Positions 5,896 through 30,877 of a stretch of DNA of 64,000 nt are shown here, one piece after another. A program made the translations under genes and the position numbers. The DNA is from Planctomycetota bacterium (lineage in GTDB: Bacteria > Planctomycetota > UBA1135 > UBA2386). The stretch is from positions 1-64,000 of the forward strand of contig JAQCBR010000002.1 of NCBI GenBank assembly GCA_027621295.1, in the 5' to 3' direction. A model generated the notes under the pieces. That model saw nothing but the letters and a program-made list of their open reading frames with translations. It ran no database searches and was not told the DNA's origin. Numbering within the stretch: position 1 is the stretch's first letter; each line of letters begins with the position of its first letter.

Positions 5896-6987
5896 TCAGC
5901 CGATCTGCCGGGTTTCGTCCGGCGAGGTGCCGCGCCGTTCGGCGCGCGAGCGCTCGTAGATCCGGAGCGCGCTCGAGCTCTGGAAGGCCCTCTCCCGGAC
6001 GAAGACCCGGATCACGTGGCGGAGCGCGGCCGGGACGGCCGCCATCGGGCCGCGCGCGTCGACGAACTCGGAGCGGATCGCCCGGAACAGCACGGCTCGG
6101 ATCGCATACGCCAGCTCGACCAACTCGACCGGCTCTTCGCCGAGCTGGTCCCAGAACGCCCGGAGGTCGGTCGGCGGGAGGACCCTCTCGCTCGGTGCCG
6201 CGCGGACCTGCTCGTCGACGAACTGGGCGAGCGTCAGCGGCGTCAGGATGACGAGGGTCTCACGGCGACGGATGCCGGCGAGGCGTTCCTCGTGGATGGC
6301 TGGGTTCGCGGTCGACTTGATCTGCACGCGGGCCCCGCGCTCCCGATCGAGGTCCGGGTAGCGAATCCGCAGGTCGGTCTTCTGGCAGAAGTCCTCGATC
6401 AGGCGGGCGGCATGGGCGCAGAGCTCGTCCTCGACCAGGATGTCGAGCATCAGCTGCTCGAAACGCCTGTCCTCGTGCGAGGGAATGCGGATGCCGACGC
6501 CCTGCGGCGGGTTGCGGAGGATCCGGCCGACGTCGCGCAGGTCGCGCGCGAAGCGCACCACGCCGCGCCGCACCGAACGGCGGGCGAGGGAGTCGGTCGC
6601 GTCGACGTCCGCCTCATGCACGAAGCCGAGGCCCCAGAACCGGCGGGCGGCGACCTGGTCGAGCCGCTGTGGGATCGGATCGCCGTGATCGAGCACGGTG
6701 TCCATCGGGTCGGCGCCGACGCGCAGCGGGCCGCGGACCTCGCCCCAGGTCTCGACGCTGAAGACCTCGTCGCACAACTGACGCAGCAGGGTCAGCACCG
6801 CCTGCTGGCGTCGGACCGGGTCCTGCGGAGGGCGGCCCCCGGCGAGGTCCGCGTAGACGGCGAACAGGTCGGGCCCCAGCACGCGCGAGAGACCGGGATC
6901 CTCCAGCCGCCGCGCCAGGGTTCCGCGCTCGAACGCACGCTCGAGGTCGAGGATGTTCGCGCGGAGCGTCCGGTAGAGCCCGGTCAT
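5896..6987 (-). CDS. Uncharacterised protein with possible PD-(D/E)XK nuclease-like core
   Basis: I do not recognise this 363-residue protein. Starts at GTG 7059 or ATG 7050 are also in frame, but the added residues are Arg-rich and unlike a folded domain, so the ATG at 6987 (MTGLYRTLRAN) is preferred. It appears soluble and mainly helical. Residues 172-255 hold a pattern reminiscent of Mrr-like restriction-endonuclease folds: RRFEQLM with Glu177, then RYPDLD with Asp212, then VQIKST with Gln222 and Lys224, followed by a hydrophobic strand (TLVILTPLTLAQFV). Mrr-type enzymes use a D...QxK arrangement. This is a motif-level inference; no methylase or specificity subunit is adjacent. nadA follows 82 bases downstream on the same strand. 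Confidence 0.6.
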   Translation of the reverse strand: MTGLYRTLRANILDLERAFERGTLARRLEDPGLSRVLGPDLFAVYADLAGGRPPQDPVRRQQAVLTLLRQLCDEVFSVETWGEVRGPLRVGADPMDTVLDHGDPIPQRLDQVAARRFWGLGFVHEADVDATDSLARRSVRRGVVRFARDLRDVGRILRNPPQGVGIRIPSHEDRRFEQLMLDILVEDELCAHAARLIEDFCQKTDLRIRYPDLDRERGARVQIKSTANPAIHEERLAGIRRRETLVILTPLTLAQFVDEQVRAAPSERVLPPTDLRAFWDQLGEEPVELVELAYAIRAVLFRAIRSEFVDARGPMAAVPAALRHVIRVFVRERAFQSSSALRIYERSRAERRGTSPDETRQIG

Positions 6988-8044
6988 GTCCCACGCCCCG
7001 CAGAACGGCCAGCGGCGTCGGACCCGACGCGAAACGCGGTCTCGGACCATGGCAGCCACTTCGGCGGGGAAGAACGAGTCCGGGGCGGAGCCGCACGGCG
7101 CCGGAGACCCCGGATCGAAGGCGCCATCCTAGGCCGGTCGCCGGAGGTTGCGAGTACGGTCCGGCGAACTTTCCACCCGGCGGGCGCAAGCCACTTCTGA
7201 GCAATTGCTTGTGACGAACTTGTTTTGTGGACAGGGCGCGATGGAAACCGAGGGCGCGACCCCGGCTCCCGCAGCCAGGGGCCTCCTTGAACGCCCTGGC
7301 GAACGATATCTCCCTCCCCGGTCGATGGGGCAACCGGCAAGAGGCCACCGCCACACACGGGTGCGCTACACGATCTAGCCGGATCGCGCAGCGATGACGT
7401 GGACGCCACTCCGCTCGCGCCACGCGGCGCAGTCACCACGTGGCCGAGCCATTCAGCAGCCGGGGAGGACGCATGCACGGACCGATGCCCGCGGACCACA
7501 TCCGCGCGGTGGGCGACCGACTCGCTGCCCGAGCCCCGGACGGGGACCCCGCGAGTTCCGCCCTGGGGGTCGTCCGAGGACTGACGGGAAGGCCGCGGAT
7601 CTACGCCCGCTGCCGCTGCAATGCTTGGTCGCCCGATGGGCGTCGCAAGCCAGGGACCCAAGGGCTGGCGCGCGAGCCGCCCGCAGACTGGCAGGATGTG
7701 CGAATGACGACGGGGGTATGAAACAACCGGTTCGGGAGCCCGCGGTGCCACTGCGCTCGGCCAAGCAGTGTGCCGCGACCGGCCAGCAATCGAATCGGGT
7801 CGACCGCAACGATCCCTCTCGGGCGAGAGCTCCGGGAGCCGAGCGCGCTCGTCCGGCGTTCCCTCCCGAGCAGATTCGTGTTCCAATCCTCTCCGCTGTG
7901 GCTCGGCGCATCTACTGCCGGTTCGAACCGCAGCGGCGCCCGAACCGAGGGAAGCCGACGCAGCGGTGGTGCTGCGCCTGTTTTCTTCCGACCCGTCGAC
8001 GAAGCCCGGCAGCTGGGCGCAAGATTCCTGGAGGATGAGCTCGA
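6988..8044. other. Gene-poor kilobase before glycan block
   Basis: No convincing conserved gene was found over about 1 kb, unusual for this dense window. The codon bias of neighbouring genes is absent for most of it. An AT-richer patch lies at about 7196-7232, including GCAATTGC and TTTTGTGGACA, and a CTTTCCACC motif is at 7169-7177. One short open frame with a good Shine-Dalgarno sequence is listed separately. The segment marks the left edge of the glycosyltransferase/sulfotransferase block and may carry its promoter or be a decayed insertion boundary. No tRNA, terminal repeat or integrase was seen. Confidence 0.5.
7473..7721 (+). CDS. Possible small protein, unknown
   Basis: An 82-residue frame starts at an ATG preceded by GGGGAGGA, one of the better ribosome-binding sequences in the window. 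Its first 50 codons favour G/C in the third position, as real genes here do. The product (MHGPMPADHIRAVGDRLAAR at its start) shows no recognised domain, and the second half has a poorer codon pattern and a Cys/Arg-rich composition. It could be a real small gene, a decayed remnant, or chance. Confidence 0.25.
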   Translation: MHGPMPADHIRAVGDRLAARAPDGDPASSALGVVRGLTGRPRIYARCRCNAWSPDGRRKPGTQGLAREPPADWQDVRMTTGV

Positions 8045-9334
8045 ATGTCCGATTCCAATGAGAGAGATACCCGATCCGATACCGAGCTCTCCATCCAGGA
8101 ATATCGAGAACGGACCCAACCGATATTCATACTAGGCAGCGTCAGGTCCGGAACGAGCGCACTGGGCAATGCCTTGCGCGAGGGAGCTGGTATCGAAGGG
8201 GCGCTCGAGGGCCACAGTTCGACCCTGATGGGCTCGCTGTTCCAGACCCTGGACAGGGTCACCGGCAACTTCCCCCCCGAGTCGAATTACCTGATCAACT
8301 CGCTGGATGCCGACGATCTCCGGAGTCACATCACGGATTACTTCCTCGCGTTCTATGCGCGCCAATGCCCGGCGGGTATGTGGGCCGACAAGTCGCCCGA
8401 CGACTTCGAAGGGGCCCCATCTATCCGGTCGGCCCCGACCCTCCTGAGCATGTTCCCGAATGCCAGGTTCATCTACTGCAAGCGTCGTGGGATAGAGAAC
8501 GTGCTCTCCCGCCTGGCCAAGTTCCCGCAGGTGCCGTTCTGGTATCACTGCCAGTCGTGGGCAGGAACGATCGTGGCGTGGCACGAGGTCAGGGAAGTGC
8601 TCGGCGATCGATGGATGGAAGTCACGCAGGAGGACATGGCGCTCGAGCCCGGGCGGGTCGCCGATGACCTCGGCACCTTCCTCGCCCTGAGCGAGACACA
8701 GGTCTCCGGCATCCAAGAGACTCTCTCGGGCCGTCGGCCCGAGCAGACCCGACCAGCCCAGGAGGTCCGACAACTGGGACTCGACGAGACGGGCTGGAGT
8801 CAGGACAACCAGGCGAACTTCATACAGACCTGTGGCCACGCCATGGAGCTCGCGGGATATCGCCTCGCTGGGAGTGGACAGAGCGAGGACCAGAAGGTCA
8901 TTCGTCTCTTCCATATCTCGAAATCGGCCAACCCCGGTACGCCGTCCATCAACGTCGAACCCAACAGACACCGGTTTCTCAGCGAGGCCGAATTCGCGCT
9001 GGCGCCGCTTCCTGACGGAGAGAGGGCCGAGGCGACCTACCCGCAGATCGAACTGAGGGCCGGAGCATTGTTCAGAGCCGTGGTGTCGCTCATCTCCGCG
9101 GTGAAGCAAGACGTCTGGTTCGGCGTGGAAGTACGAGACTCCCTCGGTTCGTGCGTGGCCGAGACGAGCCACCGGCTGACGAGCGGTGAGGTCAAATCGC
9201 TGGATCTCGCGATGCCAGACCTGGAGGAGGGCCTCTTCACCGTCACGCTGTGGACGAGGACCGACGTCGGTGTGACGGTCGGTCCCGTCGACGCGATCTG
9301 GAACTCGCCTACCTTCTTCCTCCCGACCGCGTAG
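8045..9334 (+). CDS. Sulfotransferase with C-terminal Wzt-like beta-sandwich domain
   Basis: The 429-residue protein has a PAPS-dependent sulfotransferase fold at about residues 26-275. The 5'-phosphosulfate loop is FILGSVRSGTSALGNAL at 28-44, the ADKSP motif is at 114-118, and the 3'-phosphate site is RFIYCKRRGIENVLSRL at 141-157. After a linker, about 285-429 is a predicted all-beta domain with GALFRAVVSL, WFGVEVRDSLGSCVAET and LPDLEEGLFTVTLWTRT-like strands. That segment resembles the C-terminal polysaccharide-binding domain of Wzt-type ABC transporters. It likely sulfates a surface glycan in the cytosol, with the extra domain holding the glycan chain; the second part is inference. The ATG at 8045 is clear. 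Glycosyltransferases follow, the next one 37 bases downstream on the same strand. Confidence 0.82.
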   Translation: MSDSNERDTRSDTELSIQEYRERTQPIFILGSVRSGTSALGNALREGAGIEGALEGHSSTLMGSLFQTLDRVTGNFPPESNYLINSLDADDLRSHITDYFLAFYARQCPAGMWADKSPDDFEGAPSIRSAPTLLSMFPNARFIYCKRRGIENVLSRLAKFPQVPFWYHCQSWAGTIVAWHEVREVLGDRWMEVTQEDMALEPGRVADDLGTFLALSETQVSGIQETLSGRRPEQTRPAQEVRQLGLDETGWSQDNQANFIQTCGHAMELAGYRLAGSGQSEDQKVIRLFHISKSANPGTPSINVEPNRHRFLSEAEFALAPLPDGERAEATYPQIELRAGALFRAVVSLISAVKQDVWFGVEVRDSLGSCVAETSHRLTSGEVKSLDLAMPDLEEGLFTVTLWTRTDVGVTVGPVDAIWNSPTFFLPTA

Positions 9335-9371
9335 CTTTGGCCGGCCGCCCTCCACCCATCGCTGCAGAACC

Positions 9372-10865
9372 ATGAGAATCCTGCATGTGTGTCCAGGACT
9401 GGCCCCGGTCGAATCCTCGGATCGTGCTCGCTACGTCTGGCGGCTCGCTCGGCAGCACGCCGAGATCCAGAGTGCCGCGATCTTCACCACGCGCGTCGAC
9501 CCGGAGGCGCCCACCGGCCGCCCCGTCATCGAACGGCGAGAGGGTGTCACGATCTGTTGGGTCAACGTCCCCGAGACCTCGTTCGAGCGCCTCGAGGATT
9601 CCTACATCAATGAACAGATCGAGGCCGCGTTCCGGCAGTTCATACATGAGATGCGGTCCGACGTCGTCCATATCCATGGGCTCGAGAGGCTGAGCGTCGG
9701 GCTCGTCGACATCGTCCACTCCAAGGACATCCGAAGCATCTTCACGCCGCACACGAGCTGGGAGACCTGTCCGATCGAGAGTCGCCGTTGTCGTACCGAC
9801 GGTCTGATCTGTTCCAGCGTGGACACATCCAAGTGCGGTCAGTGCGTCTACGGGTCCCGTTGGTCCGACCTGTTGGAAGGGGAGGAGCAGGAGCGCGCTG
9901 CGGCACGGGGTGCGAGGAGCTGGGAATCGGCGTACCAGAGCCTCTACGCCGACAGGTTCGAGAGTACTCGCGGATGGTTCGCGCGGAGACCGCGCGCGAA
10001 GGCCTTCGCCCTGCGGAAGCTGCCGGCGGAAGTTCGGCGTCGATGGCGGGAGCAGACGGACGAGTTGCGATGGGATCCGGTCGAGCGGAGGAAGCGGCGG
10101 ATCGGCGAGCGGCTGCGGACGATGGATCTGATCACCGCTCCCTCGAGTCTCATGAGGGACGACTGGATCGCGCACTTCGGCCTGGATGCCAGAAGAGTGG
10201 TCACGCGACCTCTCCCGTCACCGACGAGTCCGTCCGACGTGCCGCCCGCCTCGCGCGGTCCGGTGACCCGGATCGCTTCGTGGGGCACGATCGATGATGA
10301 CCCCGGTCTGCGGACACTCGTCGCCAGCTGCTGTGAGGTCCTGGGTCGCGGGATCCAGCTGGAGCTTCACCTCATCGGGAGCGTGACGAGTGAGGACGCC
10401 GTCGCCTGGATCCTCGCCCAGTTCGACCAGTGCGGGCATCCCTCGAACGTGATCGTGGGCGCGCAGCCCGCGGACGTCGACCTGGAGACGACGCTGGGCG
10501 CCTTCGACCTCGTCGTCGAGCCTCGGGTGACCTTCGATGCGCCGAGCGCTGCGTTGCTCCATGCCGCCGAGCGCGGGACGGCAGTCCTCGTGGCGCGCGG
10601 AGCGGTCGCTCCCGACTTCACGACCGAGTTCGGATTCGGCGCCTCGTTCCGCGCAGATGGAGCAGATGACCTGACGCAAGCGATCGAGGTCTTCTGCCGG
10701 GTAGATGATGGGGAGCCCGGTCGTCCTCGCGGCGCGCGCCGCCGCCTCCGCTCGATCGAACACGAGGCGCTCGACTTCGTGCGCATCTATCACGAGTTGC
10801 TCTACAAGAAGCTCGACGTGGAGTCCGAGGCCGCGCAGGGCCTGTCGCCGGAGACCTGGAAGTAG
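9372..10865 (+). CDS. GT4-like glycosyltransferase with cysteine cluster
   Basis: The 497-residue protein begins with the GT-B opening strand MRILHVCPGLAPVESSDRARY and has the N-domain HIHGLERLSVGLVDIV strand. A cysteine-rich insertion at about 137-163 (TCPIESRRC, LICSSVDTSKCGQCV) resembles the metal-binding cysteine group that follows the TPH/TLHD motif in some GT4 enzymes. The C-domain is divergent: RIASWGTIDDD...LELHLIGSV is the expected strand-turn, and FDLVVEPRVTFDAPSAALLHAAERGTAVL sits where the donor-binding E-x7-E motif would be, here weakly conserved. The donor and acceptor cannot be read from sequence. It probably acts with the preceding sulfotransferase on a surface glycan. Confidence 0.75.
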   Translation: MRILHVCPGLAPVESSDRARYVWRLARQHAEIQSAAIFTTRVDPEAPTGRPVIERREGVTICWVNVPETSFERLEDSYINEQIEAAFRQFIHEMRSDVVHIHGLERLSVGLVDIVHSKDIRSIFTPHTSWETCPIESRRCRTDGLICSSVDTSKCGQCVYGSRWSDLLEGEEQERAAARGARSWESAYQSLYADRFESTRGWFARRPRAKAFALRKLPAEVRRRWREQTDELRWDPVERRKRRIGERLRTMDLITAPSSLMRDDWIAHFGLDARRVVTRPLPSPTSPSDVPPASRGPVTRIASWGTIDDDPGLRTLVASCCEVLGRGIQLELHLIGSVTSEDAVAWILAQFDQCGHPSNVIVGAQPADVDLETTLGAFDLVVEPRVTFDAPSAALLHAAERGTAVLVARGAVAPDFTTEFGFGASFRADGADDLTQAIEVFCRVDDGEPGRPRGARRRLRSIEHEALDFVRIYHELLYKKLDVESEAAQGLSPETWK

Positions 10866-10891
10866 GGCTGCGGGCTCGGACCCGGAAGCCG

Positions 10892-12922
10892 TCAGGGCAG
10901 TGATGCGTTCGCTTCTCTGGGTCCGTGCATCCGTTCACGTAGGGGCAGGCTCGAGTGCGGTGCGTCGTGCTTCATCCAGCTCCAGCGGATCATCAACTCC
11001 CGCTCCAGCGCCTTGTTGGCTTCCTCGCCGACGATCCGGGTCCGGGCGAACGACTCGGATCGCATGACGGACTGGAGGGTCTCCAGGACCATCGAGCCGG
11101 TGCGCACGTAGTCATGGTTGGTGCGTGCATAGCTCAGAGCCTCGCCACGCATCTCCTCGAGGACGTGAGCCGATTCCCGGCGGGTCCGAACGAACCACGT
11201 GAGCATCTCCTCGATGTTCGCATCGTCCTCGGGCTCGACGAGCCGGCCTCTGACGCCCTCGAGCACGACTTCGGGGATGCCGTGCACTCGCGAAGAGATG
11301 ACCGACGTCTCGAGCAGCATGGACTCGATGTTCACCAGCGGCGAACACTCGTTCGTGGAGATCAGGACATGACAATCCGCCGCCGCCATGAACGGGGCGC
11401 CACTCGGCTGCGGTCCGACGATGTGGACCTGATCGGCGAAGTCATCCTGCAACGCGCCGAGGATCTCGTGGTAGTAGCTCTCGGGTCCGGCGTTGTCGGG
11501 GTCGAGTCGGCCGACCAGGGCGAGTGCGTGCTTCTTCGCCTCGTCGGTCGGCATCTTGCCCAGCATCGACTGGAACGCGCTGACGAGTCGCTTCTGGTTC
11601 TTGCGCCTCTCCAGGCTGCCGACGCAGACGAAGAGCGTGCCATCGTCGGGTACCCGAAGCTCGTTCCTGATCTCGATCCGAACGTCCCCGAGGTCTTGAC
11701 CCGCGGCGATGAGCGCATCGACGTCAAAGCCATAGGGGACGACTCCAACCGGCTTGGAGATGGGCGGACAGAACGTCTCGAGCTGCTCGGCAGTGTCGCG
11801 GGAAGCCGTCAGCACGACGTCCGCGCTCGCCAAGGCGTAGCGGTGCATGGCCTCGAGCGACCTCATGCTGAAGAGATGTCCGTCTCGCTTCTCGACGTTG
11901 ATGCCGTCGTGGAACCACCAGACCAGTGGTATGCCCTTCCAGCGAATCAGCGGAGCAAGTGCGTAGACGGGTGACGCGTTGAGGAACAGGATGTCGGGAT
12001 CGATCCGGTCCACGGCGTCCAGGAACGTCCGGTAGTGCGGCCACGCTTCGTCATGTTCGACGACCTGGAAGCGATCGGGCCCGACCAGACTGCGGAAGTC
12101 GTCCGCCATCGGCCCATCGCCAATGCCGATGCACCAGAGCTCGAAGTCGACCTCGAGTTCGAGGAGCCCCTTCATGGCCCACAACATGCCGGTGGGCGCT
12201 CCCGTCTTCGAAAGCTCGTGCGAGACGAAGAGGACGCGCTGGACGGCTCTGCCCCGCTCTGACGGCGCGAGTCTCGTGGAGCTGTAGATCGCCCCCCCCG
12301 CTCGGGTCTTCAGATCCAGCAGGCATCGATCGCGGATCAGCTGCGATTCCTCGTCGAGGCGGTCCGCCCGGCAGGCCCTCCAGATCGCCAGCTCGTCCTG
12401 CGCATGCCAGAACATCGAGGCCTTCACGGGCGGTGCATGGGCAGCGTCCCGCTGACTCTCCGCCATCTGCACGACGTGACTCAGGTCCAGATCGCCCAGG
12501 TCTCGGACGACGTATTGCGCGCCCCATCCCAGACCATCTTCGCCATCGTGGTAGGTCGGCCACGCGTCGCCGATCAATACGACGAGGTGAGAGAAGAACG
12601 GCGCTGCCACGACTGGCTCTCGCCAGTCTCCCAAGTGCCATGCCTCCTGCTCCTGATCGTCGATGGCGAGGATCACGCGCATTCCCGACAATCGCGCCAT
12701 CACGACCGCTTCCGGCATCGTATTGCCGAGGAATATGACGGTCCTGGCCGCCTCGCGCACCAGGAAGCGGAGCAGCGATTCAGTGGTGTCCGTGTCGGTC
12801 AGTTCGAGGTCGACGAGCCGGTGATGGGGTGGGCTGTGCCGATACCACGCGTGGATCACGGTCTGCTCGACGGGAATCGAAGTCGACCGGACGACGACGA
12901 CGGAGGGTTCTTGGGTTGGCAT
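10892..12922 (-). CDS. GT4 glycosyltransferase with long N-terminal domain
   Basis: The protein is 676 residues from the ATG at 12922; an in-frame 24-residue upstream extension is possible. Residues 1-228 form an extra domain with alternating strands (TVIFLGNTMPEAVVMARLSG, RVILAIDDQEQEAWHLGDW) that may be a second, non-catalytic GT-B half. From residue 229 a standard GT4 enzyme follows: VLFVSHELSKTGAPTGMLW opens the N-domain, and FVCVGSLERRKNQKRLVSAF is the C-domain opening with the donor-contact Arg/Lys. The EX7E region is STNECSPLVNIESMLLETSVI, then GIPEVVLEGVRGRLVEP. It is therefore a retaining glycosyltransferase, of unknown sugar. It converges with the preceding gene with a 26-base gap. 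Confidence 0.85.
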   Translation of the reverse strand: MPTQEPSVVVVRSTSIPVEQTVIHAWYRHSPPHHRLVDLELTDTDTTESLLRFLVREAARTVIFLGNTMPEAVVMARLSGMRVILAIDDQEQEAWHLGDWREPVVAAPFFSHLVVLIGDAWPTYHDGEDGLGWGAQYVVRDLGDLDLSHVVQMAESQRDAAHAPPVKASMFWHAQDELAIWRACRADRLDEESQLIRDRCLLDLKTRAGGAIYSSTRLAPSERGRAVQRVLFVSHELSKTGAPTGMLWAMKGLLELEVDFELWCIGIGDGPMADDFRSLVGPDRFQVVEHDEAWPHYRTFLDAVDRIDPDILFLNASPVYALAPLIRWKGIPLVWWFHDGINVEKRDGHLFSMRSLEAMHRYALASADVVLTASRDTAEQLETFCPPISKPVGVVPYGFDVDALIAAGQDLGDVRIEIRNELRVPDDGTLFVCVGSLERRKNQKRLVSAFQSMLGKMPTDEAKKHALALVGRLDPDNAGPESYYHEILGALQDDFADQVHIVGPQPSGAPFMAAADCHVLISTNECSPLVNIESMLLETSVISSRVHGIPEVVLEGVRGRLVEPEDDANIEEMLTWFVRTRRESAHVLEEMRGEALSYARTNHDYVRTGSMVLETLQSVMRSESFARTRIVGEEANKALERELMIRWSWMKHDAPHSSLPLRERMHGPREANASLP

Positions 12923-13072
12923 TGGTCGCAGCGCGCTGGGAGGGTCAGCGGTTCGGACTTGGGGCGACGCAGGCGAGTGTAGTGATCGCATCACCTCGGT
13001 CCATCCGGATTCGGCGGCGCGTCGGACTGCCTCCTCGGGGGACGGTGGGTGCCAGTCCGCGGACGCGCGGCG

Positions 13073-14332
13073 TCACTCGCCTTCGGAGGCGCTGCGCTCA
13101 GCTCGGCCGAGCCGTCGGCGGACCTTGCCCGAGAAGCGGATGCAACGACCCCAAAGAGTGATCGGCGTCGGGGGGGGAGCACCACAGCGCCTCGGCGGCA
13201 TCAGCGGGCGGTCGTCCGGCCATGTTCGAGGGGACCGTTGCCACGCTTCCTGCACCAGCCCCTCGAACCAGTCCACGTAGTCCCGGATCGAGTGGCGTTG
13301 CAGGACGAAGCTGTGGGCCCTGAGTCCCATCTCCGACAGCCGATCCCGGGATGCCGCCAATTCCGCAATGCGCTCGGCCATGGAGCGCATGTCGCCCACA
13401 GGAACGGTGAAGCCGTTCCGGCCATCCTCGATCGTCGCGCGCGTGCCGCTCACGTCGGTGACGATCGGGACACACCCGTTCGCCATGGCCTCGAGCATGG
13501 AGATGGACGTGCCTTCGTAGTCTGAGACGAGGATCGAGACGTCAGCCTCTCGCCAGAACTGCGACATCTTCTCCTGCGCGATCCTGCCGACGAATTCGAC
13601 CTTGTCGAGTGCTTCCGGGCCGAGTTCGGCCAGCCCCTCCCGCAGGGCGGCTTCGTCGCTCCCCGACCCGGCAATCGTCAGCCGGAAGTCGAGGGATCGA
13701 TCGAGCAGATCTCGGACGAGTGGCACGATTCGGACAATGTTCTTCTGCTCCTGGACGAGTCTGCCCGCAAACGCGACATGCAGCGGATCAGCCGGGGCGC
13801 TCCAGGCCCTGGCGAGCGCTTCCGGGACATCGACTCCATAGGGCTTCACACGGATGTCCTTCGCGCGGTGCGGGAGTCTCGCCGCGAGTGAAGCGGCCAC
13901 CTCGTCGCTCACGGCGACGAGCAGGCTGATCAGAGGGTCGTAGTGTTCGACGAGGTCGTAGTAGTAAGGCTGATCGGTGTGGACGAAACCCAGCACACGC
14001 ATGTCTGCGGCGGCTTCCCGAGAGGCGCGTGCGCAGGCCGCGTAGGTCCCTTCGGTGTAGTTCGGGACGAAAGTGGCGGGCAACGCCTGCTGATAGGTCA
14101 GGAAGTAGTGCTCGACGTCCTGGGGCTCGGCCCAGCCCGGATGTCGCCCATCGCATTGGATGTGCCGGATGCAGCCCTCGACATGTTGATCCCAGGCCAC
14201 ATCCGGGTTGACGTGCTCGATCAGCACGGGCTCGAGCTGTCGCGCCGCGGTCATCCGGGCCATGTCGATCGACCAGCCGGTGACTCCACCGAGGCCGTGC
14301 CCGTCAGGCAGTACGAAGCATACTGGGCGCAT
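13073..14332 (-). CDS. GT4 family glycosyltransferase
   Basis: The 419-residue GT-B enzyme starts at the ATG at 14332. The N-domain has MRPVCFVLPDGHGLGGVTGW, with the glycine-rich acceptor/donor loop. The C-domain has HVAFAGRLVQEQKNIVRIVPLV, TIAGSGSDEAALREGL and the catalytic EX7E block SDYEGTSISMLEAMANGCVPIVTDVSGT, followed by the usual DGRNGFTVPVGD. It is a complete, canonical retaining GT4 enzyme. The last 45 residues are basic and Pro/Arg-rich, perhaps membrane-associating. It probably belongs to the same surface-glycan block as the neighbouring minus-strand transferase, lying 150 bases upstream of it. Confidence 0.9.
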   Translation of the reverse strand: MRPVCFVLPDGHGLGGVTGWSIDMARMTAARQLEPVLIEHVNPDVAWDQHVEGCIRHIQCDGRHPGWAEPQDVEHYFLTYQQALPATFVPNYTEGTYAACARASREAAADMRVLGFVHTDQPYYYDLVEHYDPLISLLVAVSDEVAASLAARLPHRAKDIRVKPYGVDVPEALARAWSAPADPLHVAFAGRLVQEQKNIVRIVPLVRDLLDRSLDFRLTIAGSGSDEAALREGLAELGPEALDKVEFVGRIAQEKMSQFWREADVSILVSDYEGTSISMLEAMANGCVPIVTDVSGTRATIEDGRNGFTVPVGDMRSMAERIAELAASRDRLSEMGLRAHSFVLQRHSIRDYVDWFEGLVQEAWQRSPRTWPDDRPLMPPRRCGAPPPTPITLWGRCIRFSGKVRRRLGRAERSASEGE

Positions 14333-22271: not shown

Positions 22272-23738
22272 TCAGCGACGTCGCCGGTTGCTCTCGGCGT
22301 CGTCGAACGCCCAGTAACCGCTGCTCGCCTCGGCCCCGTCCCTGATTGCGGCATCTCGCCGCGGAAGGAAACTCCGCAGCACGTCAACGGTCGCCCGTAT
22401 GGCCTGCGGTCTGGAGTCGCCATCGACATTGCCTGCGAGCAGGTTGTGCCACTCGTGTCTGTCTGCTCCGTGGTCGTAGAGCTCCTCGCTGCCGTCCGCG
22501 TAGCGGATGTAGCGCCAGCGTTCGGTGCGCACCGCGTGGTTGCCGGGTCCGAAGGTGGTCACCGCGGCGTTGGGCCAGCTGGCGTCCTCGGGGTCGTCGA
22601 GCAGGGGCACGAGGCTGTGCCCGTCGAGGTCGGGTTCGGGCGCGAGGCCGCACAGCCCGACGAGCGTCGGGTAGAGGTCGACGAGTCCGACGGGCTGCGC
22701 GCACCGGCCCGCCGCGAGCCCTGGTGCGGACACGATCAGGGGCACGTGCGTCGATCGCTCCCACAGCGAGCGCTTGGCCCAGCGCTGCTTCTCGCCGAGG
22801 TGGAAGCCGTGGTCGGAGAACAGCACGACGATCGTGTCGTCGGCGTGTGGGCTCTCGTCCAGCGCGTCCAGGACCCGCCCGACGCACGCGTCGACGAACG
22901 AGGAGGTGGCGAGGTAGGCCTGGACGGCCGCGTTCCACTGGTCGTTCTCGACGAACCACTCGTGGCGCGGCGCCGGGTGGCCGATCGTCAGCCGCTTCGC
23001 GTACTCCGGAAGGTCGAGCCGGTCGTCGTCGAGGACGGGCGGGAGTTGGACCCGGTCGATGGGGTGGAGATCGAACCAGCGCGCCGGCGCGTACATCGGC
23101 ACGTGGGGTCGGTAGAAGCCGACCGCGAGGAAGAAGGGCTCGTCGTGCTCCTTCTCGAGCTGCTCGATCGCCCAGTCCGCGACGCGCGTGTCGGGCATCT
23201 CCGCGTCGGTCGCCGGGTGCGGACCCCAGTCCCAGAGCCTCGGCTCGAGCGGGTAGACGAGCTTGTCCTCGGGGAGGGGACCGAAGCCGCCCATCCCCCC
23301 GCCGTAGTCCTGGAAGAACGGCTTCTCGTTGCCGTGGTGGAGCTTGCCGACCCCCATCGTCCGGTAGCCCTCGGCCGCGAATCGCTGCACGAGCGTCGTC
23401 GTCTCCTGCAGCGAGGGCTCGGCGGCCAACGCCGGCGTCAGGAAGTACATCCCCGTCGTCGACGGCAGGCGTCCCGTGGCAAGGCTGGCGCGCGACGGCG
23501 CGCAGACCGGGGCCTGGCAGTGGGCGTTGGTGAACAGCACCCCGCGCGCGGCCAGGCGATCGATGTTCGGCGTCCTGGCCTGCGGGTGTCCGCCGAGCAC
23601 GCCGACCCAGTCGTTGAGGTCGTCGACGGCGATCATCAGCACGTTGGGACGCACCCCGGTCGGGCTGTCCGACTGCGCGACTGCGGGCGTCGTGAGACTG
23701 GCGGCGAGTGCGAGGGCAGGAGTCAGGATCTGGCGCAT
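22272..23738 (-). CDS. Secreted sulfatase, iduronate-2-sulfatase-like
   Basis: The 488-residue protein starts at the ATG at 23738 with a signal peptide (MRQILTPALALAASLTTPAV). The N-terminal metal site is NVLMIAVDDLNDWVG. The formylglycine motif C-x-P-x-R is intact in CAPSRASLATG, so a maturase must act on the cysteine. Other family blocks are TMGVGKLHHGNEK, GFYRPHVPMYAP and VVLFSDHGFHLGEKQRW, the latter with the Asp-His metal ligands. The spacing and DLND motif resemble iduronate/choline-type sulfatases; the true substrate is unknown. It should release sulfate from a glycan in the periplasm or outside. It diverges from the lipoprotein gene with only 29 bases between start codons. Confidence 0.93.
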   Translation of the reverse strand: MRQILTPALALAASLTTPAVAQSDSPTGVRPNVLMIAVDDLNDWVGVLGGHPQARTPNIDRLAARGVLFTNAHCQAPVCAPSRASLATGRLPSTTGMYFLTPALAAEPSLQETTTLVQRFAAEGYRTMGVGKLHHGNEKPFFQDYGGGMGGFGPLPEDKLVYPLEPRLWDWGPHPATDAEMPDTRVADWAIEQLEKEHDEPFFLAVGFYRPHVPMYAPARWFDLHPIDRVQLPPVLDDDRLDLPEYAKRLTIGHPAPRHEWFVENDQWNAAVQAYLATSSFVDACVGRVLDALDESPHADDTIVVLFSDHGFHLGEKQRWAKRSLWERSTHVPLIVSAPGLAAGRCAQPVGLVDLYPTLVGLCGLAPEPDLDGHSLVPLLDDPEDASWPNAAVTTFGPGNHAVRTERWRYIRYADGSEELYDHGADRHEWHNLLAGNVDGDSRPQAIRATVDVLRSFLPRRDAAIRDGAEASSGYWAFDDAESNRRRR

Positions 23739-23767
23739 GGGTCCCCGATTGGATGCGATCACCCATC

Positions 23768-27232: not shown

Positions 27233-30200
27233 ATGCGCGCGATCCTCCCTGCTCTCGTCGCGACCCTGCTCTCGATCCAGTCGGCTCCCGGGCAGCGCGA
27301 GTCGAACGCGGCTCCCCGCCCGAACGTCGTGTTGGTGCTCGTCGACGACATGGGGTTCTCGGACATCGGTTGCTACGGCAGCGAGATCGAGACGCCGAAC
27401 CTCGATGCGCTCGCGGCGGGCGGCGTGCGGTTCTCTCAGTTCCGCAACACGTCCCGCTGCTGTCCGACGCGGGCGATGCTGATGACGGGGCTGCACCCCC
27501 ACCAGGCGGGCATCGGGCACATGACGCTCGGGCCGAACCAACAGCCGGACCCGAAGCGCCCGCCCGCCTACCAGGGCTACCTCAACGAGCACTGCGTGAC
27601 GATCGCGGACGTCCTCGGGTCGGCGGGATACGCGACGTTCATGACCGGCAAGTGGCACCTCGGTCGCCACGACGAGAGCCTCTGGCCGCTGCAGCAGGGC
27701 TTCGACCGGTTCTGGGGGTCGATCTCGGGAGCGTTCAACTACTTCCTGCCGAAGCACCCGCGCGGCATCCACGCCGACAACACGCCGATCGAACGGCCGG
27801 AATCGACGACCGATCGCCGCTTCTACACGACCGACGCGTTCACCGACCATGCGATGCGCTTCGTCGGGGATCACCTCGACGGCGCAGCCCAGGCGGACCC
27901 CTTCTTCCTCTACCTCGCCTACAACGCGCCGCACTGGCCGATGCAGGCGCACGACGAGGACATCGCGAAGTACCGCGGGCGCTACAAGATCGGCTGGGAC
28001 GAGCGGCGGAAGCGTCGGCACCAGAAGCAGGTCGAACTCGGGCTGATCGACCCGGACTGGCCGCTGTCGCCGCGCGACCCGTCGGCGCCCGCCTGGGACA
28101 CGCTGGATGAGCAGAAGCAGGACGAGATGGACCTGCGGATGGCGATCTACGCGGCGATGGTCGATCGCATCGACCAGAACATGGGGCGACTCGTCGCCTT
28201 CCTGAAGGAGCGTGGGGTCTTCGAGGACACGCTGATCCTGTTCCTCTCGGACAACGGCGGCTGCGCCGAGGGCGGTGTCCTCGGCAACCAGGACATCTAC
28301 GACGTCGAGGCCCGCAACGCCGCCTACGACATCGCGTACGGCCTCGCGTGGGCGAACGCGTCGAACACGCCGTTCTCGCTCTACAAGCACTGGTCCCACG
28401 AGGGGGGCGTCGCAACGCCCTTCTTCGCCCACTGGCCGAAGGGCATCGAGGCGCGCGGCGCCTGGTGCGACGAGCCGGGCCAGCTGCTCGACGTGATGCC
28501 GACCCTGGTGGAGCTCTCGGGCGCCGAGTATCCGACGGAGTTCGAGGGTCAGCCGATCCACCCGCTCGTCGGCGTGTCGCTGACGCCGGCGCTCGCGGGT
28601 CGGGAGATCCAGCGGACGCGTCCGATGTTCAACGAGCACGAGAGCAACGGCTCGATGCAGGAGGGCCGGTACAAGCTCGTCGGTCGGCGCGTCGCCCAGC
28701 AGGACGGCTACCACCCCGAGAACTGGGAGCTCTACGACCTCGAAGCGGACCGGACCGAGCAGCGGAACCTCGCGGCCGAGATGCCGGAGCGGGTCGAGGA
28801 CATGTCCAGGCGCTACGAGCGTTGGGCGCACGACGTCGGCGTGTTCCCGAAGCGGAAGCCCAAGAAGGACGCGCCCAACGTGCTGGTGATCCTCGCGGAT
28901 GACCTCGGGTTCTCGGACCTGGGCGCCTACGGCGGCGAGATCCCGACCCCGAATCTGGATCGGATCGCGGCGGAGGGAGTGCGGTTCTCGCAGTTCACGA
29001 ACTCCGCGCGCTGCTGCCCGTCGCGCGCTTCGCTGCTGACCGGGCTCCATCCCCACGAGACCGGCGTCGGCTCGTTCGCGACCGCGCGGCCGCGCGAAGG
29101 CGGCGGCCCGGCCTACACCGGCCACCTGTCGTCGGACTGCGTGACCTTGGCCGAGGCCCTCGGGAGCGCGGGCTACTCGACATGGATGGTCGGCAAGTGG
29201 CACCTCGGCGTGCCGGGGCCGATCGACCGTGGCTTCCAGAACTACTACGGCTACCGGAACTTCCTCGCCCACTCGGAGAACCAGTGGGATCCGAGCCACT
29301 ACGTGCGGCTCCCCGAGGGGCGTACGGAGGAGATCCCGGCGGGCGAGGGCTTCTACGTGACCGACCAGTTCACCGCGTACGCGCGGGAGTTCCTGCGGCA
29401 GGCGCGCGGGCAGGATCGGCCCTGGTTCCTCTACCTCGCGCACTCGTCGCCGCACTTCCCGATCCAGGCGCCGAAGGAGTCGATCGAACGGCACCTCGAC
29501 ACCTACCGCCGCGGTTGGGACGAGCTCAGAGCCGAGCGCCTCGCGCGGATGAAGGAGCTCGGGCTGATCGATCCGACCCTCCCCCTGCCGCCGCGGAGCA
29601 TGGTGCCCGTCGATCGCGAGGACATCGCCAACGGACATCCGGGCGTGCCCAACCCCGCGTGGGCGGACCTCGAGCCGGCGCGTCGCGAGGATCTTGCGCG
29701 GCGGATGGCGACGTTCGCGGCCATGGTCGAGCACGTCGACCGGGGCGTTGGGCTGATCCTCGACGACCTCCGGGACAGCGGCGAACTCGACAACACGCTC
29801 GTGCTGTTCCTGTCCGACAACGGCGCCTGCTACGAGTGGGGCCCGTTCGGCTTCGACGGGCCGTCGCGTCGGGGTTTGACGACGCTGCACGAGGGCGAGG
29901 AGCTCGAGCGCATCGGCCAGGACGGCACCCACCAGAGCTACGGCTCCGGCTGGGCGATGCTCGGCAACACCCCGCTGAACCTCTACAAGCACTTCGCGCA
30001 CGAGGGAGGCATCAGCAGTCCTCTGCTCGCGCGCTGGCCCGCGGGCCTGGCCGCGCGGTCGGACTTCGTGACGACGCCCGCCCACATCATGGACGTCGCG
30101 CCGACCGTCCTCGAGGCCGCGGGCGTCGCGTACCCGAGCGCGCTCCGGGGCACCGCGACCAAGCCCCTCTCGGGGATCTCGCTCCTGCCCGCGATGCGCG

Positions 30201-30877
30201 GCGAGCCGACGGCCGAGCGTTCGATCGCCTACGAACACCAGCTGGCTCGCGGGCTGCGCCGCGGCCGCTGGAAGATCGTCTGGGGCAAGCGCATGCCGAA
30301 GGAGCCCGCTTGGGAGCTCTACGACCTGGAGAACGACCGCGCCGAGCAGCAAGACCTGGCCGCCGAACGACCGGGGCTCGTCGAGGAGTTGGTGCGCGAG
30401 TGGGAGGCCTGGGCGAAGCGCGTCGGCGCGGACCCGTTCCCGCTGCCGGACGCGCCCGCGGACCCGTCCCTCCGGATCGACGGCGTCGAGATCATCGTGC
30501 GCGCCGAGGTCGAGATCGGGGCCGGCACGCAGGGCGTGGTGATCGCCCAGGGTGGACGGGTGCACGGCTTCAGCCTGCACGTCGACCGGGGCACGCCGGT
30601 CTTCGAGGTCCGCCGCGACGGCGTCGTGCAGACGGTCCGCGCTCCGGGCCCGATTCGCGGGGTGCACCAGCTGCGCGGCCGACTGACCAGGGCCTCCCTG
30701 GACCTGTCGGTCGACGGCAAGGTCGTGTCCGCGGTCCCGTCGCCCGGGCTGCTCCCGGGCCAGCCCACCGATGCGCGCGAAGTGGGAGTCGACTCGCAGA
30801 CCGCGGCGGGGAGCTACGAGTCACCGAACCGGTTCGGCGATGGCCGCATCCTGTCGACGAACGTCAGGACGCGCTGA
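27233..30877 (+). CDS. Tandem double-sulfatase with C-terminal LamG-like domain
   Basis: The 1214-residue exported protein has a signal peptide (MRAILPALVATLLSIQSAPG). Sulfatase domain 1 spans about 29-545 with NVVLVLVDDMGFSDIGCYGS, the formylglycine motif CCPTR at 76-80, FMTGKWHLGRHDES and LFLSDNGGCAEGG. Domain 2 spans about 547-1070 with NVLVILADDLGFSDLGAYGG, CCPSR at 594-598, MVGKWHLG and LFLSDNGACYEWG. Both active sites look complete, so both may be matured. From about 1080 a beta-rich domain (LRIDGVEIIVRAEVEIG, GRLTRASLDLSVDGKVVSAV) resembles a concanavalin/LamG jelly roll and may bind the substrate. Each half is closest in style to planctomycete arylsulfatase A-like enzymes. No stop or frameshift lies between the halves, and the linker (KRKPKKDAPNV) is short. 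Confidence 0.93.
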   Translation: MRAILPALVATLLSIQSAPGQRESNAAPRPNVVLVLVDDMGFSDIGCYGSEIETPNLDALAAGGVRFSQFRNTSRCCPTRAMLMTGLHPHQAGIGHMTLGPNQQPDPKRPPAYQGYLNEHCVTIADVLGSAGYATFMTGKWHLGRHDESLWPLQQGFDRFWGSISGAFNYFLPKHPRGIHADNTPIERPESTTDRRFYTTDAFTDHAMRFVGDHLDGAAQADPFFLYLAYNAPHWPMQAHDEDIAKYRGRYKIGWDERRKRRHQKQVELGLIDPDWPLSPRDPSAPAWDTLDEQKQDEMDLRMAIYAAMVDRIDQNMGRLVAFLKERGVFEDTLILFLSDNGGCAEGGVLGNQDIYDVEARNAAYDIAYGLAWANASNTPFSLYKHWSHEGGVATPFFAHWPKGIEARGAWCDEPGQLLDVMPTLVELSGAEYPTEFEGQPIHPLVGVSLTPALAGREIQRTRPMFNEHESNGSMQEGRYKLVGRRVAQQDGYHPENWELYDLEADRTEQRNLAAEMPERVEDMSRRYERWAHDVGVFPKRKPKKDAPNVLVILADDLGFSDLGAYGGEIPTPNLDRIAAEGVRFSQFTNSARCCPSRASLLTGLHPHETGVGSFATARPREGGGPAYTGHLSSDCVTLAEALGSAGYSTWMVGKWHLGVPGPIDRGFQNYYGYRNFLAHSENQWDPSHYVRLPEGRTEEIPAGEGFYVTDQFTAYAREFLRQARGQDRPWFLYLAHSSPHFPIQAPKESIERHLDTYRRGWDELRAERLARMKELGLIDPTLPLPPRSMVPVDREDIANGHPGVPNPAWADLEPARREDLARRMATFAAMVEHVDRGVGLILDDLRDSGELDNTLVLFLSDNGACYEWGPFGFDGPSRRGLTTLHEGEELERIGQDGTHQSYGSGWAMLGNTPLNLYKHFAHEGGISSPLLARWPAGLAARSDFVTTPAHIMDVAPTVLEAAGVAYPSALRGTATKPLSGISLLPAMRGEPTAERSIAYEHQLARGLRRGRWKIVWGKRMPKEPAWELYDLENDRAEQQDLAAERPGLVEELVREWEAWAKRVGADPFPLPDAPADPSLRIDGVEIIVRAEVEIGAGTQGVVIAQGGRVHGFSLHVDRGTPVFEVRRDGVVQTVRAPGPIRGVHQLRGRLTRASLDLSVDGKVVSAVPSPGLLPGQPTDAREVGVDSQTAAGSYESPNRFGDGRILSTNVRTR

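Follow-up and report, generated by a model that had tools for sequence, protein, structure and literature searches.

The window analysed here, a 64,000-nucleotide stretch from the draft genome (4.6 Mb) of a Planctomycetota bacterium, contains a gene that starts with ATG and occupies exactly 8045-9334 (+) as a single uninterrupted frame of 429 codons. Its product (429 aa) is assigned, from the open reading frame and Pfam, as a fusion of a PAPS sulfotransferase with a C-terminal jelly-roll domain. The catalytic domain spans residues 26-272 (8120..8860, +), as delimited by a Sulfotransfer_3 match and a fold like that of tyrosylprotein sulfotransferases (TPSTs), and the predicted β jelly-roll covers residues about 284-426 (8894..9322, +), as indicated by AlphaFold2 and by matches to carbohydrate-binding modules (CBMs). 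Neither a frameshift artefact nor a pair of adjacent genes accounts for the fusion: the reading frame is single and open, and eight other genomes carry the same arrangement. Three genes assigned by Pfam to GT4-type glycosyltransferases follow: one of 497 aa directly downstream (9372..10865, +), a convergent one of 700 aa (10892..12994, −) and one of 419 aa (13073..14332, −).

The catalytic half matched the Pfam family Sulfotransfer_3 (PF13469) over residues 26-216, scoring 56.7 bits where the curated threshold is 27 (E 5.3e-15); NCBIfam gave no match to the whole 429-aa protein. Both the 5' and the 3' PAPS binding motifs of the sulfotransferase family are present. The 5'-phosphosulfate binding loop, GSVRSGTS, lies at residues 31-38 (8135..8158, +), with G31, R34, S35, G36 and T37 invariant in all 11 aligned sequences, and the 3'-phosphate binding motif, RRGIENVLS, at residues 147-155 (8483..8509, +), with R147, G149 and S155 invariant in the same set. 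An ADKSP motif at residues 114-118 (8384..8398, +) keeps D115, K116 and P118 throughout these sequences, bearing out the first-pass annotation, which had described the catalytic half as intact and carrying both PAPS motifs and ADKSP. Glu55 (8207..8209, +), likewise invariant in 11 of 11, is a candidate catalytic base: in the alignment with tyrosylprotein sulfotransferase its counterpart is the latter of the two Glu residues in the CGEE motif, the catalytic base of TPST2.

The AlphaFold2 model of the full protein, computed from 11 aligned sequences, had a mean pLDDT of 80.3. Its predicted catalytic fold resembles that of the tyrosylprotein sulfotransferases (VIA Z 19.6, 237 residues aligned, rmsd 3.7) and also that of heparan sulfate 3-O- and N-sulfotransferases (VIA Z about 13). 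These eukaryotic Golgi enzymes share the PAPS sulfotransferase fold and motifs with the present protein and, in the case of the TPSTs, the aligned acidic residue as well, but they are only 12-20% identical to it and the alignments span the catalytic part alone. No hydrophobic N-terminal segment or leader was found in the 429 residues, the best 19-mer (mean hydropathy 1.5) being located inside the C-terminal domain, and for lack of such a segment the protein is likely to be cytosolic. Judged from these motifs, the product very probably acts as a PAPS-dependent sulfotransferase.

The C-terminal extension is a genuine additional domain. The nearest paralogue encoded in this genome (L002), with 32-34% identity in the catalytic portion, ends where the catalytic domain ends, and so does a homologue from another genome (L064). 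The earlier proposal of an additional domain at residues 280-429 thus stands, with the bounds drawn in slightly. Modelled on its own with AlphaFold2 (window positions 8852-9331, nine aligned sequences), the domain gave a pLDDT of 82.8 and a pTM of 0.81 and consists mostly of strands arranged as an all-β sandwich, the fold anticipated in the first-pass annotation; the lack of such a fold, named there as grounds for rejection, was not observed. This predicted model served as the query for comparisons with the PDB by Foldseek and VIA (VIA-align), each listing 50 matches. Among the matches listed by Foldseek, the best were mostly CBMs or CBM-containing enzymes, with a probability of 1.00 for CBM16, CBM4, CBM6, CBM61 and CBM22. 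VIA aligned the domain with the alginate CBM 8zqf (Z 11.9, rmsd 4.0, 148 aligned), CBM4-2 (Z 11.4, rmsd 3.3, 138 aligned), CBM16 (Z 11.4, rmsd 3.0, 129 aligned) and CBM51 (Z 11.3, rmsd 2.7, 123 aligned); CBM61 was also among the VIA matches at Z 11-12. Residues 17-167 of the galactofuran polymerase GlfT2 (9nj1) aligned at Z 11.2, with an rmsd of 3.1 over 125 positions. On the strength of the predicted model the domain is almost certainly a jelly-roll β-sandwich, and its description as glycan-binding-like is supported.

The jelly-roll fold alone is no proof of sugar binding, because domains with other roles share the same VIA listing at Z 10.6-12.0, among them those of meprin (12.0), an ephrin receptor (10.8), a toxin and cyclases. 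Eleven alignment columns are identical in all nine C-terminal domains and just two of them are aromatic (one Phe, one Tyr), so that no conserved sugar-stacking site is evident. By sequence, residues 282-429 matched no Pfam family. NPCBM/CBM51 (PF08305) in particular matched none of the nine domains at E up to 10, and both NPCBM and CBM4_9 were rejected as the sequence family of the domain, their profile probabilities of 4.6% and 0.3% being too low. DUF6212 was found in two of the nine, at a best E of 0.0023, which is under that family's cut-off. A profile of the nine domains also weakly picked NPCBM domains encoded by two further genomes, at E 2.6e-4 and 0.0018; these proteins belong to another family and carry their NPCBM at the C-terminus (L102 436-1749, +; L104 1495-2877, −). 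NPCBM/CBM51 therefore resembles the present domain in being a jelly-roll and in appearing among the weak matches outside the family, but differs from it in sitting on other proteins and in the low profile score.

The first-pass annotation had likened this region to the polysaccharide-binding C-terminal domain of Wzt, a family also marked by fusion to an ABC ATPase, a C-terminal strand-swapped dimer and binding of a terminal cap. The domain studied here is joined to a sulfotransferase instead. Its predicted model has a jelly-roll β-sandwich, a fold described for Wzt_C as well. Pfam Wzt_C (PF14524) matched none of the nine homologous domains at E up to 10, and membership of that family by Pfam was rejected. 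When the profile of the nine was compared by hhalign with one of 20 planctomycete Wzt C-terminal domains, from which one row with stops (L091) had been excluded, the probability was 45.6% (pairwise E 2e-4, 71 columns), above that for NPCBM or CBM4_9, and the score of 30.4 exceeded the maximum of 14.7 reached by 40 column-shuffled controls. With the two clades of the C-terminal domain taken apart, the probability fell to 12.0% and 0.3%. No Wzt chain appeared among the 50 matches listed by Foldseek or by VIA, which excludes nothing. The sequence profiles hint at an ancestry shared with Wzt_C, without family membership, and the label "Wzt-like" is only partly supported.

A search of the kind proposed in the first-pass annotation showed that the same fusion exists elsewhere. 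It is present in nine Planctomycetota genomes: the one studied here, six from the genus g45, which belongs to the same order but to a different family, and two from family f15, which is more distant. The individual searches found it in 7 of 154 genomes of the order, 4 of 392 of the phylum and 2 of 6 of f15. A scan of genome contigs with a single sequence returned no fusion. The same scan with an alignment returned six, identical to those of genomes G065-G067 and G069-G071, together with three distant loci that matched over the catalytic part alone. Viral contigs yielded no fusion. In a tree of 17 catalytic domains a single branch of modest support (82/84) separates the nine fusions from the rest. 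The rooting of this tree is unsure because of long branches outside the fusion group, and the fusion may have had one origin.

The C-terminal domain changes faster than the catalytic one. Its dN was 1.6 to 4.8-fold that of the catalytic domain in the eight diverged pairs of the nine compared, with dN below dS in all eight. The sequences of the ninth pair (L016, L017) barely differ and are uninformative for rates. Synonymous distances near or over 1 are saturated, and the ratios are rough in the pairs concerned. Between the window and other lineages the domain is 19-30% identical in two pairs. Fast yet constrained change of this kind is compatible with a specificity domain that tracks a changing glycan and likewise with a structural domain under loose constraint.

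The gene neighbourhood is partly conserved. A homologue of the 497-aa glycosyltransferase (32-38% identical) directly follows the fusion gene in all six g45 loci, hence in seven with the window. The 700-aa glycosyltransferase has a homologue (51-54% identical) in four of the six, and the contigs of the other two end before this position. For the 419-aa glycosyltransferase tblastn gave no match in 11 related loci. The GT4 pair is absent from the analysed stretches of the two f15 loci, and no transporter was seen among the scanned near neighbours of the window's fusion gene. The block of four genes at 8045-14332, comprising the sulfotransferase and the three GT4 genes, has a third-position GC of 0.79-0.82; of 20 other window genes measured, one is at 0.81 and the rest at 0.83-0.96. 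The block may be a transferred glycan island. Further genes of the window include sulfatases at 22275-23762 (−) and 27233-30874 (+), no more than about 20 kb away from the sulfotransferase; the second is a 1214-aa frame with two sulfatase matches. For the 387-aa frame at 5899-7059 (−), whose coding bias is strong, Pfam gave no match at E 0.001.

In one f15 genome, G329, the 4 kb around the fusion gene include genes for an ABC ATPase of the Wzt type, which matches Wzt_C weakly, for a CysD-like protein and for a CysN-CysC protein of PAPS synthesis; the CysD and CysN names are our reading of Pfam matches and gene order. A 501-aa frame between this fusion gene and the ATPase gene (L066 8196-9698, −) has a faint match to the β-lactamase fold (E 0.014). 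Among the loci scanned, G329 is the only one with a Wzt-type gene near the fusion gene; in the genome of the window and in G069, the Wzt_C match sits on another contig. An APS kinase was found in all 10 genomes examined, including that of the window. The latter also carries frames resembling CysC, CysD and CysN-CysC side by side (L184 8455-12046, −), where two APS kinase domains come from a Pfam search and the remaining names from reading the sequence.

The reading we favour, with about even confidence, is that of a cytosolic glycan O-sulfotransferase with a CBM-like module that holds its substrate. Its acceptor would be a glycan assembled by the GT4 glycosyltransferases encoded next to it, and PAPS its sulfate donor. 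The C-terminal jelly-roll would act as a carbohydrate-binding module that keeps the enzyme attached to the polymer it modifies, and this hold would set which chain, or which part of a chain, receives the sulfate. Counting for this reading are the intact catalytic domain with its Sulfotransfer_3 match and PAPS motifs, the CBM-like matches of the predicted jelly-roll, the fusion retained in nine genomes, the conserved GT4 gene downstream, the G329 neighbourhood and the PAPS-making kinase encoded in the genome. Counting against it are a fold that is not specific to sugars, the poor conservation of the C-terminal domain and the lack of an evident stacking site, the TPSTs as closest catalytic relatives, the f15 loci without the GT4 pair and the lack of a transporter among the scanned near neighbours of the window's gene. 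We infer a glycan acceptor, bound by the module in a way that steers sulfation. Of these parts, a glycan acceptor is probable. The shape of the domain, like that of sugar-binding modules, and its retention in nine genomes suggest that it may hold the chain being modified, and we lean slightly towards glycan binding by the putative module.

An alternative that we regard as possible but rather unlikely is that the C-terminal domain binds no sugar and has a structural, dimerisation or docking role, for instance towards the partner GT4 glycosyltransferase. Jelly-rolls of this shape serve in many non-sugar roles, and those of meprin, the ephrin receptor and the toxin score as high in the VIA listing; a conserved aromatic patch is not evident, and one GT4 neighbour is conserved across seven loci. 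Yet most of the close structural matches listed are carbohydrate-binding modules, and the observed divergence is greater than one would expect of an interface used purely for dimerisation, a weak argument against this role. The jelly-roll could also recognise an acceptor other than a polysaccharide, such as a tyrosine in a protein, a small molecule or a lipid. Although the tyrosylprotein sulfotransferases, the closest relatives of the catalytic domain with solved structures, act on protein tyrosine and have an acidic residue that lines up with Glu55, the neighbours are glycosyltransferases, the likeness in fold extends to heparan sulfate sulfotransferases, and the sulfotransferase family is broad in its acceptors. 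We consider a non-polysaccharide acceptor improbable.

We consider it similarly improbable that the domain is distantly related to the Wzt C-terminal domain and reads a chain end or cap, with sulfation at a defined end or length. The profile probability above the shuffled controls, NPCBM and CBM4_9 points in this direction, as do the jelly-roll fold of Wzt domains described in PMC9445017 and the G329 gene near a Wzt-type ATPase. Against it stand the empty Pfam search of the nine domains, the weakening of the signal on splitting the clades, and the direct comparison of the G329 fusion domain with the Wzt of the same genome, which gave no match (E 0.57). The Wzt-type gene near the fusion gene in G329 only, among the loci scanned, and the Wzt_C matches on other contigs in the genome of the window and in G069 weigh on the same side. 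Reading of a chain end or chain length by the putative module, whatever its ancestry, is improbable. A more specific version, which the Wzt-type transporter ATPase in the G329 neighbourhood allows, is a sulfating chain terminator: the jelly-roll would read the end or length of the glycan as it grows in the cytosol, the catalytic half would cap the chain with sulfate, and the cap would serve as the export tag for a Wzt-type C-terminal domain. We regard this as very improbable, and we know of no sulfate export cap that has been described.

The favoured substrate-holding sulfotransferase can be compared with several known systems. WbdD-type O-antigen chain terminators act on the non-reducing end, where they halt growth of the chain, and are encoded with a Wzm-Wzt exporter; here, among the loci scanned, a Wzt-type ATPase lies near the gene in G329, and Wzt_C matches lie on other contigs in the genome of the window and in G069. 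GlfT2 likewise makes a glycan and carries a jelly-roll as an added domain, but it is a glycosyltransferase and has that domain at its N-terminus, and the likeness comes from structural comparison alone. The C-terminal domain of Wzt in O-antigen ABC transporters is a cytosolic C-terminal jelly-roll on a protein of a glycan pathway, as described in PMC9445017, and shows weak profile similarity, but it is carried by an ABC ATPase rather than a sulfotransferase, and PF14524 matches none of the domains studied here. PMC6286764 describes Wzt C-terminal domains as immunoglobulin-like.

The nearest published relative that we found is the chain terminator ORF6 of Klebsiella pneumoniae O7, a methyltransferase-kinase with a predicted CBM (PMC11231755). 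Like the protein proposed here, it acts in the cytosol on a glycan chain, and its predicted CBM is a β-sandwich. It differs in its methyltransferase-kinase activities, its coiled coil, its immunoglobulin-like CBM and its dedicated ABC-transporter cluster, with no sulfotransferase. According to that article, CBMs have not been identified in any other terminator enzyme. We recognised no sulfotransferase-CBM or sulfotransferase-Wzt fusion in the literature, as searched by title and start of abstract with few subscription journals covered. Glycosaminoglycan-active sulfotransferases were not known from prokaryotes at the time of writing of PMC7356697, according to that paper. Little is known about how bacterial sulfotransferases choose the position of sulfate on polysaccharides, and a sulfotransferase with a built-in glycan-binding module, if this protein is one, would offer a direct way to ask whether substrate binding directs the sulfation pattern.
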